DNA of 64,000 nucleotides, taken from Bacteroidota bacterium. Its GTDB lineage: Bacteria; Bacteroidota; Bacteroidia; CAILMK01. The notes under the pieces were generated by a model, which worked only from the letters and a program-made list of their open reading frames with translations, was not told where the DNA came from and did no database searches. The stretch is from NCBI GenBank assembly GCA_013288555.1, contig JABDBQ010000004.1, positions 47,070 through 111,069 of the forward strand, given 5' to 3'. Below are positions 38,958 to 45,489 of the stretch, in pieces. The position numbers were made by a program, and so were the translations under genes. The first letter of the stretch is position 1; the number at the start of each line of letters is the position of its first letter.

Positions 38958-41327
38958 TTGATGACACAATCCTTTACACCAGGGGAATTTCAATCTTATT
39001 GGCCAAATGCACTTAAAATGAATAGATTCATTGCTTATTTTTTGCCTACGTTTATAGCTGGTTTGCTTGCTATTGGTACTCATTCCTATGGTCAGGATTT
39101 TAATCATTTTCAAACCTTAAGATCTTCAGGTAGGGTACCGGAAAAATTTCGCACTTCCTCTCTGGAAAAATATAATTCAGATATTCAACAGATATCATCA
39201 AAAGAAAAAAGAAGGTTGAAGCGTTTAAAAAAGGAATTTTTTTATGAAAGTGCCTTCGATTTGAATAACCTCCTTCATAGTGGGATGCTGGTATTTAATG
39301 ATCCGGTAAGCATTTATGTTAATAAAGTCATGGATACCATCCTGAAAGATGATAAACCACTTCGGAGTAAAATAGAAATCTATGTTTTAAAATCAACAAG
39401 TTTTAATGCATTTACAAGGCAAAACGGTGTGATATATATATGTGTTGGTCTCCTGGCACGTTTGCATAATGAATCTGAACTTGCATTGATATTGTGTCAT
39501 GAGCTAACACATTTTACAAACCAGCATAGCATTCAGAAAGTAATTGAAAATGATGATATAAATGCGGGAAGAGGGGTTTACAGGAAAACCAATGAAGATG
39601 CAAAGCTTATGGCCGCGAGCATGTTTTCCAAAAAAGAAGAATCTGAAGCCGACCTGGTAGGGCTTCAACGGTTTCTAAAAACCAATTACGATCCAAACAA
39701 AGCTATTGGAGAATTTGATATCATGGAATATCCTCAATTGACTTTTAATGAAGTGCCTTACAAAAAAAACTATCTTGAAACCTCTAACCTTGTATTCCCA
39801 CCTTCTTATTTTCTGAAGAAAATAAGTGATGTTGTTGCAGACGATGATGATTCGTTATCAACGCACCCCGCAGCTAAGTTGAGGCGAGCAGCCGTGATTT
39901 CGAAATTGCAGGGTCTCGATGTTTCAGGAAAGAAAACATTCCTGGTTGGTGAGAATGACTTTAATTCGGCTCAAAAAATATGCAGATATGAAATGTGCGA
40001 TATCTATCTGCATAACAATATGTTTCAGAATGCATTTTATACATCTTATCTTTTACTCCAGGAAAACCCGGGTAGCATTTATCTGAAGAAATGCGTTGCA
40101 AAATCATTGTATGGTTTGAGTAAATACAAAACAAATGGTAAGTATAGTGACATTTACAATGGATATATTGATATCCAGGGATATTCACAACAGGTATTTT
40201 ATTTTTTTAATGAAATGAAAGCTCCTGAGCTAAATGCATTAGCAGTTGAGTACCTCTACAATCTTAAAAGACAATACCCTGATGACAAAGAGATTGTAGC
40301 GATAACCCAGGATATCATGACTGAAATGGTGCAGTACCACAAAGATAAATCTTTTTTTTCGGCAGATCCAAAACCGGCCAGTCTGGATTCTGTTCTCGCA
40401 AAAGATTCGGCTTCAAAAGGGAATATTCTTAACAAAAGTGATAAGCCTAGAACCTTAATAGTTCAAAAAAGCAAGTATGAGAGCAATTCCGGGAGCAAAA
40501 AGGGAGATGAGCAAAAGGAAAAGAAAGACGATAAAAACTATTTTATCAGGTATGCATTTGTTGATCTGCTTACAGATCCCGATTTTATAAAAGATTATGA
40601 CAAAGCAGTTATTAACTATAATGAGACCTTAAGTGACAATCAATACAAAGAAACACGCGAATATAAAAAGGCTGAAGCTAAAATAGAGCGCAGACTTAGA
40701 AGGAATGGAATTGCCCTGGGCTTGAATAAACTGGTTATCGTAAATCCATTTTATTATAAAGTAGATGAATCCAAATCAAATCCGGTAAAGCTTGCCGCGT
40801 CTGAATTAGCTCAGAAAGACCTTAATAATTGCATCAAAACGAATGCGAACCTGGCCGGGCTCAATTACGAACTTATTGACATGCATGACCTTTCTGAAAA
40901 CTCAGCTGAAGTATTCAACGACCTCTCAGTTTTGAATTATTATTCAGCAGAAAGGAGTGAATTGGGCGATATGCATTATGTGAATTATATGACTGACGAT
41001 ATACAGGCATTAACAAAAAAATATCAGACAAATTATTTTGACTGGACAGGTGTTGTGTGTTATCGCGAGCATAGTAATTTCAGACAAGGCTACCTGAAGA
41101 CGATATTTGCTATATTTTCAATATTTTATTTCCCGCTGACACCATATGCCTTGTACAATGCATTCAGGACGCACTATAACACTTATATAATATCAAATAT
41201 TTATGATCTTGGAACGGGACAAAGCGAAGATGTTCGGGTATCGCGGGTAAAATTCAAAGACAGGCCGGATGTACTAAATTCTATATTGTATGACCTTTAT
41301 CTTCAATACAAAAAGCCAAAAAATTAA
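38958..41327 (+). CDS. M48-family metalloprotease with long C-terminal extension
   Basis: 789 aa; signal-like N-terminus, LILCHELTHFTNQHS (HExxH), ESEADLVGLQ third ligand. Confidence 0.88.
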   Translation: MMTQSFTPGEFQSYWPNALKMNRFIAYFLPTFIAGLLAIGTHSYGQDFNHFQTLRSSGRVPEKFRTSSLEKYNSDIQQISSKEKRRLKRLKKEFFYESAFDLNNLLHSGMLVFNDPVSIYVNKVMDTILKDDKPLRSKIEIYVLKSTSFNAFTRQNGVIYICVGLLARLHNESELALILCHELTHFTNQHSIQKVIENDDINAGRGVYRKTNEDAKLMAASMFSKKEESEADLVGLQRFLKTNYDPNKAIGEFDIMEYPQLTFNEVPYKKNYLETSNLVFPPSYFLKKISDVVADDDDSLSTHPAAKLRRAAVISKLQGLDVSGKKTFLVGENDFNSAQKICRYEMCDIYLHNNMFQNAFYTSYLLLQENPGSIYLKKCVAKSLYGLSKYKTNGKYSDIYNGYIDIQGYSQQVFYFFNEMKAPELNALAVEYLYNLKRQYPDDKEIVAITQDIMTEMVQYHKDKSFFSADPKPASLDSVLAKDSASKGNILNKSDKPRTLIVQKSKYESNSGSKKGDEQKEKKDDKNYFIRYAFVDLLTDPDFIKDYDKAVINYNETLSDNQYKETREYKKAEAKIERRLRRNGIALGLNKLVIVNPFYYKVDESKSNPVKLAASELAQKDLNNCIKTNANLAGLNYELIDMHDLSENSAEVFNDLSVLNYYSAERSELGDMHYVNYMTDDIQALTKKYQTNYFDWTGVVCYREHSNFRQGYLKTIFAIFSIFYFPLTPYALYNAFRTHYNTYIISNIYDLGTGQSEDVRVSRVKFKDRPDVLNSILYDLYLQYKKPKN

Positions 41328-42014
41328 ATGAGAAAACTATTGATATGTTTTTTTCTGTTTCCTGCATTATTGAAGGGGCAGGTTCCCGGCTATCAGGGTA
41401 AGCATTTTATTTTATCCTATAATCTTGACGTATTGCCCAATCTTGCATATATAGATCTTAACTCAGTGTCAACCCTACCTGTTCAGATTTTATTTAGCAA
41501 TCATATAAGTACAGAATATGTATTAGGCAGGAGTTTCAGTTTGGGCCTGGATGCATCATATTCCCAGAGCAAAATATTTCTCGTAGATGGCAATGCAAAT
41601 GAATCCGGAGATTCATATGGGTTAAACCTCACTTTTTATCCAAAAAAGAATAACACGATTGCGCCTGTCGGCAATTATTTTAAAATCAGGATTTTTACCG
41701 GTAGTACCTGGGCTAGTGGCAATATTCGTAATAATACCTTCGATAATAATGGTTATCCGGTTACACTGATAAAGCCTGAACAGACAAATCTTACAGTGAA
41801 TGGTTTCGGGATAGGCTTTGGTAATAACATGATCGTGCATAACAATATTGTTCTAACGGCAAGTGTAAATCTGGACTTTAATGTTATGAATTTTAATAAC
41901 AATAAAATTCCAACGGGCTCAAATTTTGAAGAGCTGACCTACGATATTCAAAATCATTTGTTCGAAACATATCTCTTTTATTTTAAACTTGGCATTGGCG
42001 GGCTCATGTTCTGA
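41328..42014 (+). CDS. Hypothetical outer-membrane/secreted protein
   Basis: 228 aa; signal MRKLLICFFLFPALLKGQ, beta-barrel-like alternation; directly abuts the M48 gene. Confidence 0.7.
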   Translation: MRKLLICFFLFPALLKGQVPGYQGKHFILSYNLDVLPNLAYIDLNSVSTLPVQILFSNHISTEYVLGRSFSLGLDASYSQSKIFLVDGNANESGDSYGLNLTFYPKKNNTIAPVGNYFKIRIFTGSTWASGNIRNNTFDNNGYPVTLIKPEQTNLTVNGFGIGFGNNMIVHNNIVLTASVNLDFNVMNFNNNKIPTGSNFEELTYDIQNHLFETYLFYFKLGIGGLMF

Positions 42015-42053: not shown

Positions 42054-44753
42054 ATGCGGATAGGAATCTTATTTGGAGGAAGGTCGAGGGAAAGAGAAAT
42101 CTCTTTTGCAGGAGGAAGAACTGTTTATGATTTACTCGATAAAACATTCTTTGAACCGGTACCCATTTTTATCGACAGTTTTGGGAATTTTGTTCTACTC
42201 GAATGGCAATATCTTTATAAAGGCAGTATCAGAGACTTTTATCCCCCTGTGTCTGCTTATAAAGACGATGAAAACAAATACCAGGTTTATGTCGAAAGCC
42301 TGGAGCCTGATGAAAAGGAACTTAATGCAATCATAGCTTCTGTTGGAAAAAAAATATCTCCTGAAGAAATAAAAGAAATCATTGACTTCGCTTTCCTTGC
42401 ATTGCATGGACCTTATGGCGAAGATGGCAGCGTTCAGGGTATTCTTGATTTCTATGATATTCCATATAGTGGTTCAGGTATTCTACCTTCATCTATCGGT
42501 ATCAATAAAATCCTGCAAAAAAAACTAATGCAGGATATGGGGATTATGGCCGCCGCTTCTGTGTCATTAAGCAGAACAGAATGGCTGGAAGCCCCTGAAA
42601 ATCAGCTTCGTTTTTTTGAAAAAATAAAAAAAGAATTTCAACTGCCAGTGGTTGTAAAATCCGGCACTCAGGGATCTTCAATAGGCGTTTCAATACTACA
42701 AGACTGGGATTTCGAGAAATTTCTCCAGGTTATTAATAAGAGTTTCTTTATCAGGCATATAAAAGCCAATGAATGGAAGGATATTCAATCCGAACAAAAG
42801 AAAGAATTCATTAGGGATGTTTGTGATATATATACCGGCATCGGGATCCCGTTTGTTGTTGAAGATGAAATAATTTATCATCCGGCGGTGCTGGAGCGAA
42901 AACTTGAAAATCTGTTTTCTGCAGGGCAGCAAAGCATTACACTGGTAAGCCTTCAGACAGAAGCAGAAATACTGGTGGAAGAGTTTATTGAAGGAAAAGA
43001 GTTTTCCTGCATCGTGGTAGAAGGGGAGAGGGGAGAACCTATAGCACTCCCGCCAACAGAGATCATAAAACAATCAGCTATATTCGATTACAGGGCTAAA
43101 TACCTACCGGGTATCTCCAGAAAAATAACACCTATTCAACTTCCGAAAGATAAAATCAAAGAAATAATTTCAGCGTGCGAAAACCTTTATTTAAAATTAC
43201 ATTTTGACGTTTATGCCCGTATTGACGGACTCATCAATAAACAAGGAGAAATTTTTTTAAACGATCCTAATACCACTTCAGGTATGCTGCCTTCGTCGTT
43301 CTTTTTTCATCAGGCGGCAGAAATCGGGTTGAGTCCTACACAGTTTCTCACATATATTATTCATAGATCCCTGCAAAAGCGCCTTAATGCTTCGCATCAG
43401 GCATATCATATAAATCATTTATTGTCAGAGCTTAATGATAGCCTTGCAAGTGAAGATGCCGTTAATTTGAAGAAAACGAAATTGGCAGTAATCTTTGGCG
43501 GATATTCAACCGAGAGACATATTTCTGTCGAAAGCGGTAGAAATGTTTTTGAAAAATTATCCTCGTCTGGTAAATATGAGGCTATCCCCGTTTTCCTGAG
43601 CCTGAACAATGAAGGAGGCTTTGACTTTTATATTTTGCCCATGTCTCTCCTTTTAAAAGATAACGCCGATGATATCAGGGAAAAATCAAGTCATTTTTCA
43701 ATTGAACCAATCATCAATGAAATAATTAGGAAAGCTGATTATATAACGAATACATTTTCATCAAAAGGGTATGAATTTTATCCGAGAAAAATTACCCTTG
43801 ATGAGCTTGCTGAAATGGTTGATTTTGTTTTCCTTGGCCTTCACGGACGCCCGGGTGAAGATGGACATCTGCAAAGATTACTGGATGATAGACATATCCC
43901 TTATAATGGATCAGGTTCAGAATCATCAGCAACCACAATAGACAAGTATCTTACAAATGAGATTTTACAGGCGAATGGGTTTCTGGTTCCGCGGCATTTC
44001 CTGGCAAGAAAAGAAGCATGGATGCAGAATCCGCATGCATTAATTGATGAAATTGAAAATCATATCAGTTATCCGCTCATTGCCAAACCATCAGATGACG
44101 GATGCTCATCAGCTGTTAAAAAAATAAAAAGCAGGGATGAATTGCTCGTATTTATGGACGCTATGTTTAGAGATATTGATGAATTGCCTGCAATAATGAT
44201 CGAAAATTTAGGACTAAAATCTAATGAAGAATTTCCACTGAAAAACTATTTTGTGGTAGAGGAGCTTATAGGTCAGAATGATTCAAAGCATTTTCTTGAA
44301 ATAACCTGTGGTTTGCTTACCAGTTATGATGGAGAAAATAACCTCGTGTACGAAATTTTTGAGCCTTCGGAAGCCCTGGCTCAAAAAGGAATTCTTTCAC
44401 TGGAAGAAAAGTTCCTGGCCGGTGAAGGTCAGAATATAACCCCGGCAAGGTTTGATCAGGATATGGTTTCAAACACGGAAATATCGTCACAGGTAAAAGT
44501 AATTTTAGAAAAAGCAGCAAGACTGCTGAATGTAGAAGGGTATGCCCGGATTGACGCATTTGTAAGAATATTTGCGGGCAATAAGGCAGAAGTGATTTTT
44601 ATAGAATTCAATTCATTACCCGGCCTTACACCCGCGACCGTCATTTTTCACCAGGCTGCCCTTAATGGTTATAAACCATTTGAATTTTTGGATCGGATTA
44701 TTCATTTTGGACGCTCAAAATCAAACAAACGTGAATATTATACAACGAATTAA
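42054..44753 (+). CDS. Tandem-fused D-alanine--D-alanine ligase (two Ddl/ATP-grasp modules)
   Basis: 899 aa. Module 1: MRIGILFGGRSREREIS, LALHGPYGEDGSVQG, VVVKSGTQGSSIGVS, EEFIEGKEF, DYRAKYLPG, RIDGLINKQGEIFLNDPNTTSGMLPSS. Module 2: KLAVIFGGYSTERHISVESG, LGLHGRPGEDGHLQ, LIAKPSDDGCSSAVK, EEKFLAGEGQ, ARIDAFVR...VIFIEFNSLPGLTPATVIF. Confidence 0.9.
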   Translation: MRIGILFGGRSREREISFAGGRTVYDLLDKTFFEPVPIFIDSFGNFVLLEWQYLYKGSIRDFYPPVSAYKDDENKYQVYVESLEPDEKELNAIIASVGKKISPEEIKEIIDFAFLALHGPYGEDGSVQGILDFYDIPYSGSGILPSSIGINKILQKKLMQDMGIMAAASVSLSRTEWLEAPENQLRFFEKIKKEFQLPVVVKSGTQGSSIGVSILQDWDFEKFLQVINKSFFIRHIKANEWKDIQSEQKKEFIRDVCDIYTGIGIPFVVEDEIIYHPAVLERKLENLFSAGQQSITLVSLQTEAEILVEEFIEGKEFSCIVVEGERGEPIALPPTEIIKQSAIFDYRAKYLPGISRKITPIQLPKDKIKEIISACENLYLKLHFDVYARIDGLINKQGEIFLNDPNTTSGMLPSSFFFHQAAEIGLSPTQFLTYIIHRSLQKRLNASHQAYHINHLLSELNDSLASEDAVNLKKTKLAVIFGGYSTERHISVESGRNVFEKLSSSGKYEAIPVFLSLNNEGGFDFYILPMSLLLKDNADDIREKSSHFSIEPIINEIIRKADYITNTFSSKGYEFYPRKITLDELAEMVDFVFLGLHGRPGEDGHLQRLLDDRHIPYNGSGSESSATTIDKYLTNEILQANGFLVPRHFLARKEAWMQNPHALIDEIENHISYPLIAKPSDDGCSSAVKKIKSRDELLVFMDAMFRDIDELPAIMIENLGLKSNEEFPLKNYFVVEELIGQNDSKHFLEITCGLLTSYDGENNLVYEIFEPSEALAQKGILSLEEKFLAGEGQNITPARFDQDMVSNTEISSQVKVILEKAARLLNVEGYARIDAFVRIFAGNKAEVIFIEFNSLPGLTPATVIFHQAALNGYKPFEFLDRIIHFGRSKSNKREYYTTN

Positions 44754-45489
44754 AAGCCGGAAATTCTGGCTGAATATTGGAATATTTGTACTTGCAGTAC
44801 TGCTTATTATTTTCGTTATCTCTGTTTTCCTAAGGATATATACCCATCACGGAGAATCACTTACGGTACCTGATCTCAAAGGAAGGAGCGTAGCTGAAGT
44901 GGAAAAAATTTGTGATGAAAAAATGTTGCGTTATGAAATAAAGGATTCTGTTTTTTCACCGGATTTGCCAAAACTTTCTGTTGTGGAACAAAATCCAAAA
45001 GCAGGAGAGAAAGTCAAAGAATACCGTAGAATTTATATTGTATTAAATACCAATAAAGCACCCAATATACCTATGCCAAACCTGGAATATAGTCCCAGAA
45101 GGCAAGCGGAGAAAATCCTGGAAAGTGTTGGTCTTAAAGCAGGTGCCAATCCGGAATATACACATAATATCGCCCTTAATGCCGTAATTCAGACCAAATA
45201 TAATGGCAAACTTATTATGCCGGGTACGATGATAGAAAAAGGAAGCACAATTGATTTTGTTCTCGGTGACGGAGGTAAAGGTGGTGTTGTGGTACCTGTT
45301 CCTGATCTATCAGGCAAAACGCTTTCGGAAGCAAGATTTATTCTTGCAGGGGACAATTTATTATTGGGGCGAATTGATAGTACAGGTGTCAAAAACACAG
45401 GTACAGCAATAATTTACAATCAAAACCCGTTATCGGGCAATAAGATTTCTCAAGGTGATATTGTAAATGTATCTCTAAAAAACAAATAA
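44731..45489 (+). CDS. PASTA-domain protein (single-pass membrane, three PASTA repeats)
   Basis: GTG start at 44731 overlaps the end of the Ddl gene; TM helix FWLNIGIFVLAVLLIIFVISVFL; TVPDLKGRSVAEVEKIC, MPNLEYSPRRQAEKILESVGL, VPDLSGKTLSEARFILAGDNL. Confidence 0.9.
   Translation: MNIIQRIKSRKFWLNIGIFVLAVLLIIFVISVFLRIYTHHGESLTVPDLKGRSVAEVEKICDEKMLRYEIKDSVFSPDLPKLSVVEQNPKAGEKVKEYRRIYIVLNTNKAPNIPMPNLEYSPRRQAEKILESVGLKAGANPEYTHNIALNAVIQTKYNGKLIMPGTMIEKGSTIDFVLGDGGKGGVVVPVPDLSGKTLSEARFILAGDNLLLGRIDSTGVKNTGTAIIYNQNPLSGNKISQGDIVNVSLKNK

Follow-up and report, generated by a model that had tools for sequence, protein, structure and literature searches.

D-Ala-D-Ala ligase (Ddl) is an essential enzyme and a drug target (D-cycloserine), and to our knowledge it has been studied almost only in single-module form. 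Two homologous ATP-grasp halves with division of labour are found in the large chain of carbamoyl phosphate synthetase (CarB), a product of tandem duplication. CarB is used here as an analogy only, since its ATP-grasp family and chemistry differ from those of the Ddl-Ddl fusion described below. In the MurC-Ddl (NCBIfam PRK14573) and MurF-Alr fusions a Ddl module or a neighbouring D-Ala pathway enzyme is likewise part of a longer chain; however, the partners are others, and two Ddl modules are joined in neither. A recurrent dimer arrangement is common to Ddl enzymes (PMC6899670). S150 and Y216 (E. coli DdlB numbering, used below for Ddl active-site positions) are conserved in Ddls making only D-Ala-D-Ala, and replacement of S150/Y216 in E. 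coli DdlB gave weak D-Ala-D-Lac activity (PMC7691350). LmDdl2 has F at the Tyr216 position, named F261 in the title of ref. 53 in PMC7691350.

Within the window, that is the whole stretch of 64,000 nucleotides of Bacteroidota DNA that was analysed, one gene encodes two Ddl modules in a single chain. The gene, its parts and its downstream neighbour were located as follows.

42054..44753, + strand: ddl-ddl fusion gene, 899 aa, the only D-Ala-D-Ala ligase gene found in the source genome
42054..43391, + strand: module 1, aa 1-446, with the canonical catalytic residues of Ddl except for E270D
43392..43466, + strand: linker between the modules, about 25 aa, predicted to be mostly helical
43467..44723, + strand: module 2, aa 472-890, Ddl paralogue with an altered acceptor site by sequence comparison
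44665..45489, + strand: PASTA-repeat protein gene, conserved downstream neighbour

The ORF begins with ATG and has no internal stops. On the 899-aa protein, Pfam placed PF01820 (Dala_Dala_lig_N) over two stretches and PF07478 (Dala_Dala_lig_C) over four, all above cut-off, and coordinates, length, motifs and domains all agree with the preliminary description of one ORF carrying two full Ddl modules. Relatives in the PDB are single-module proteins to which each half of the fusion aligned separately; searches with each half and a fold search, in which all 50 PDB matches listed were Ddl or Van ligases, found no PDB entry with two Ddl modules. No model for a two-Ddl architecture was among the best 25 NCBIfam matches. 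The whole protein stayed below the NCBIfam cut-offs for VanG (251 vs 495 bits) and for D-Ala-D-Lac ligase (172 vs 550 bits), and far below that of the MurC-Ddl equivalog (200 vs 1015 bits). An AlphaFold2 model of all 899 residues, built on a 59-sequence alignment, had a mean pLDDT of 86 and a pTM of 0.86; a defined arrangement of the two modules is thereby predicted, with confidence in the relative placement of the halves. Structure prediction had been proposed earlier as a check. The only very low-confidence segment was 776-792, in the omega loop region of module 2.

The fusion resembles E. coli DdlA and DdlB in fold, in the presence of PF01820 and PF07478, in the ATP/Mg and D-Ala1 residues of both modules and in the acceptor residues of module 1, and it is the sole Ddl, at a ddl-PASTA locus. 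Unlike those enzymes, it has two paralogous modules per chain, both with inserts absent from single Ddls, and carries E270D in module 1 and S150C, Y216F, S281T and E17H in module 2.

Relatives were sought with a module 1-derived pattern in 84,980 named species genomes, and at least 535 candidate contigs with fusion relatives were obtained. Eighty relatives matching the query nearly end to end were kept, those aligned showing 51-64% identity. Carriers included cultured Pontibacter, Hymenobacter, Rufibacter, Adhaeribacter, Rhodocytophaga and Marinoscillum and many MAGs. Although the source MAG is fragmented and incomplete, an assembly artefact or random merger of adjacent genes in it is refuted: hundreds of independent genomes have the same ORF, isolates of Pontibacter, Hymenobacter and Rufibacter among them. 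As to whether such a fusion is standard and characterised in related genera, hundreds of Bacteroidota genomes carry it, and no published Ddl-Ddl fusion was found in the open-access papers searched. Databases label these fusions simply D-alanine-D-alanine ligase, and Bacteroidota Ddl annotations conceal module 2, whose specificity may be altered.

Two Ddl-N matches were present in about 97 of 217 genomes of the class that were at least 95% complete (about 45%), and the remainder had a single Ddl. Wherever the matches were listed, the two lay in one long frame, with few exceptions at contig ends. None of these 217 genomes had three Ddl-N matches, as a fusion plus a stand-alone Ddl would give. 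A second stand-alone ddl, the search for which had been suggested in the preliminary description, was found neither in the source MAG, which is only 67.5% complete, nor in near-complete fusion-bearing relatives. Some other families, one of them in the source genome's own order, have a single DdlA-like enzyme in place of their relatives' fusion (L011, L013, L014, L015, L164, L166, L167 and others), suggesting replacement, perhaps by horizontal transfer. A phage search returned only distant single Ddls. Contig L144, titled Candidatus Saccharibacteria, contains a typical Bacteroidota fusion and is probably mis-binned. A 1381-aa version (L217:2066-6211, genome G267) has about 475 additional N-terminal residues matching no Pfam family. 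Other Mur ligases are also present in the source genome. Its alanine racemase (L187:898-2286) lies in frame after an apparent MurF C-terminal part, as judged by eye; this fits a Bacteroidota MurF-Alr fusion, yet the gene is shorter than usual and a frameshift is possible.

The history of the two halves was analyzed with a tree of 77 rows (IQ-TREE, site-mixture model). One branch each separated module 1, module 2 and the single Ddls from the rest (100/99, 100/100 and 99/93, respectively), which answered the earlier proposal to compare each half with single Ddls. The stem of module 2 had a length of 1.81. The separate module clades and this stem are what a single ancient duplication with rapid early divergence of module 2 would give. 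Constraint is now alike on both halves: the median dN/dS in 25 Pontibacter pairs was 0.048 for module 1 and 0.045 for module 2, and mean pairwise identity was 55.6% and 56.9%, respectively. Both modules are under equal purifying selection and evolve at an equal rate, indicating that module 2 is not decaying.

In module 1, the following motifs were located by alignment.

42657..42686, + strand: KSGTQGSSIG, with K144 and S150 equivalents kept and P145 variable
43086..43103, + strand: omega loop DYRAKY, with K215 and Y216 kept
43260..43286, + strand: metal loop NDPNTTSGM, with E270D and P275S, and N272 and G276 kept

All aligned members keep E15, K97, K144, S150, E180, E187, K215, Y216, R255, D257, N272, G276 and S281 in module 1. 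The Ddl catalytic residues tested were identical in 28/28 relatives except for E270D, which is itself invariant in these 28 and in the 59-sequence set; judged from the residues, it is a conservative change that retains the carboxylate. The oddities of this active site are limited to E270D and P275S.

The corresponding motifs of module 2, again placed by alignment, were these.

43506..43526, + strand: STERHIS, with E15 kept and E17 replaced by H, invariant
44085..44117, + strand: KPSDDGCSSAV, with K144 kept, S150C and G153A
44394..44450, + strand: omega loop LSLEEKFLAGEGQNITPAR, with K215 kept and Y216F, near invariant
44604..44639, + strand: metal loop EFNSLPGLTPAT, with E270, N272 and G276 kept and S281T

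E15, K97, K144, E180, E187, K215, R255, D257, E270 and N272 are kept in module 2 of all aligned members. S150C, Y216F and S281T were found in 29/29 sequences, E17H in all members and G153A in most; residue 282, near the acceptor, is also changed in every module 2, and one conserved dimer-interface glycine, G74, is missing. S150 and S281 are unchanged in all single Ddls compared. The omega loop of module 2 is among the best-conserved regions of the whole protein. The substitutions S150C, Y216F and S281T suggest a changed second substrate for module 2. A large clade has replaced the single Ddl with a two-paralogue chain whose second site carries fixed changes at positions known to set the second substrate.

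These patterns bear on several features named in the preliminary description. EFN, KP and DDGCSSAV stand in module 2 as quoted there, and in module 1 the retained YRAKY and the DPN of the metal loop, the latter being E270D, proved equally accurate. KS in place of the typical KP is present in module 1 but is no signature, as relatives have A, S, P or N at position 145. The EEKFLAG loop of module 2, which had been called degenerate, is not: residues E785 to G790 of the 899-aa chain show no variation in 59 sequences, and the change of Y216 to F is common to every member. Since the module-specific residue patterns are constant in all members aligned (28-29 sequences, with the 59-sequence set), the asymmetry between the two active sites is real and fixed family-wide.

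A fusion of two equivalent Ddl sites, both making D-Ala-D-Ala and joined for dosage or to fix the homodimer, would suit the recurrent Ddl dimer and the like constraint on both modules. It is nevertheless very unlikely, as the S150-Y216 pair, invariant in 37 single Ddls compared except for V216 of VanA, is missing from every module 2, and the two modules form separate clades throughout the family. Module 2 is like the D-Ala-D-Lac and D-Ala-D-Ser ligases (LmDdl2, VanA, VanC, VanG) in that the Tyr216 position is replaced, by F in 29/29 module 2 sequences and by V in VanA. Unlike these ligases, it adds S150C and S281T, keeps K215 and has a normal Ddl module as its fusion partner, and the fusion lies outside any van-type cluster.

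Natural variants of the fusion were found in a survey of 59 genomes of one order, that of genome G206: about 34 were fused, 2 split, 12 truncated and 9 single, and 2 had no match. The split genomes, G259 and G245, are reduced (1.1-1.2 Mb). The split genes are at the following positions.

L201:2637-3941 and L202:2698-4134: split genes of G259
L204:2688-4052 and L203:2727-4145: split genes of G245

In G259, a single contig of 1.19 Mb, the two modules are separate genes about 0.89 Mb apart: clpX and a gyrase gene flank module 1, and ftsH and the PASTA gene flank module 2. In G245, module 1 follows clpX and module 2 again lies between ftsH and the PASTA gene (clpX, gyrase and ftsH were identified by eye in these genomes). 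G273, the third member of their family, has an intact fusion, and the split copies cluster with it within both the module 1 and the module 2 clade (99/91 and 99/93), indicating that the split state arose by fission of a fusion. That module 2 has survived genome reduction as a gene at a locus of its own is strong evidence that in these genomes it does something useful and can work in trans. The split copies have Y or N for H63 in module 1 and G276A in module 2, both positions being otherwise invariant, and with these two residues lost the division of labour may differ there. Five or six Mur ligases were found in each of G259 and G245, among them an ORF of about 830 aa that would fit MurF-Alr.

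Truncated versions of 551-645 aa, consisting of module 1 and only an N-domain remnant of module 2 with the ATP-grasp half gone, are carried by 12 genomes of three families (f67, f70, f72) and by a Bernardetia plasmid.

L081:4998-6869; L177:1498-3171; L206-L216; L220: truncated versions

They form one clade (98/90). The catalytic residues of module 1 were intact in 11/11 truncated genomes inspected, and the truncated gene was the sole Ddl match in the genomes of this clade that were searched. In the Bernardetia and G206 copies, which were aligned in detail, the GGYSTERHIS motif of the remnant is degraded. Whether the remnant keeps the canonical dimer interface of Ddl was considered, and this idea was rejected, since in the sequence alignment the remnant stops short of the interface residues that PMC6899670 names. 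Module 1 co-varies with the state of module 2: unsplit full fusions have S275 and mostly F282, whereas the truncated clade has P275/L282. The support of 69/93 for the module 1 clade of full fusions leaves the direction of this change unsettled. The suggestion in the preliminary description that the pseudo-heterodimer is obligate is not supported, for in one clade the ATP-grasp half of module 2 is gone and other lineages make do with an ordinary single Ddl. Two full modules and asymmetric active sites, also named there, are supported, and the sole Ddl, the equal constraint, the predicted arrangement between the halves and the keeping of both modules when split agree with that interpretation.

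The explanation that we favour, at a probability of about 0.5 for the whole, is that the fusion is the organism's D-Ala-D-Ala ligase, in the form of an old tandem duplication and fusion that is typical for much of the class (Bacteroidota), with module 1 as the working ligase and module 2 as its ligand-binding, co-adapted partner. Module 1 would make D-Ala-D-Ala by the ordinary Ddl mechanism, through ATP, D-alanyl phosphate and attack by a second D-Ala, with D270 replacing E270 as metal ligand. Module 2 would have the Ddl fold and still bind ATP/Mg and, at the first site, probably D-Ala, while the acceptor pocket and the omega loop, with C150, F216 and T281, would no longer suit D-Ala2. It may act mainly as the co-adapted partner of module 1 in a pseudo-heterodimer, formed within one chain or between chains where the modules are split, and most likely tunes module 1 by ligand binding, any catalysis of its own being secondary. 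A ligand-binding partner is favoured because positions 275 and 282 of module 1 vary with the intactness of module 2 and because the core of module 2 is dispensable in one clade. Against this stand the loss of G74 and the kept E15, K97, K144, K215, R255, D257, E270 and N272 of module 2, which would equally fit a working ligase.

If module 2 were such a ligase, an active ATP-grasp enzyme with another acceptor (D-Ala-D-Lac, D-Ala-D-Ser or D-Ala-X), the chain would divide labour and make two products. The retained ATP/Mg and first-substrate residues, the changes at S150, Y216, S281 and 282 in every member, the published link of S150/Y216 to acceptor specificity (PMC7691350) and the survival of module 2 as its own gene in reduced genomes would all agree with this. 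We regard it as rather unlikely, as a whole clade lives with only a remnant lacking the catalytic half and other families have one ordinary Ddl, so that a second product is not required. The co-variation of module 1 at 275/282 also suggests partnership, and the VanA pattern (V216, E215) is not matched by module 2. Nothing usable on vancomycin susceptibility, a proxy for D-Ala-D-Ala termini, was found in species descriptions of Pontibacter and Hymenobacter. At the other extreme, module 2 might bind no substrates and merely stabilise module 1, as the lost acceptor-site residues, the lost interface glycine and the survival of the N-domain alone in the truncated clade could suggest. Such a structural pseudo-enzyme is improbable: no variation was seen across 59 sequences at any of its ATP and metal residues or in most of the omega loop, module 2 is as constrained as module 1, and a structural role would leave its invariant active site unexplained.

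More broadly than the favoured ligand-binding partner, we propose tentatively, at somewhat below even odds, that the ATP-grasp site of module 2 is live and has a new specificity, giving a second D-Ala-X product or serving as a D-Ala/ATP-sensing regulatory site, in cis or in trans. If so, roughly half a bacterial class would make its cell-wall dipeptide with a two-paralogue enzyme whose second module has a new specificity. As fused, split and truncated versions exist in nature, the role of the second module is directly testable.

Of 107 fusion loci with enough sequence, 83 have the PASTA gene 3' of the fusion and in the same orientation, in most cases overlapping it or no more than about 200 bases away. 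Elsewhere in the class this gene is found next to single ddl genes, so the fusion most likely occupies the ancestral ddl-PASTA locus. In truncated-clade genomes the PASTA gene survives elsewhere, indicating that the truncated gene has left the old locus; a link between module 2 and the PASTA gene was considered and is unsupported, since that clade retains the PASTA gene. Upstream of the fusion in the window, an apparent outer-membrane beta-barrel protein (41328-42014) and an M48-type peptidase (38958-41327), both assigned by eye, are encoded; among relatives they are rarely neighbours of the fusion (3/140 and 2/140 loci, respectively).
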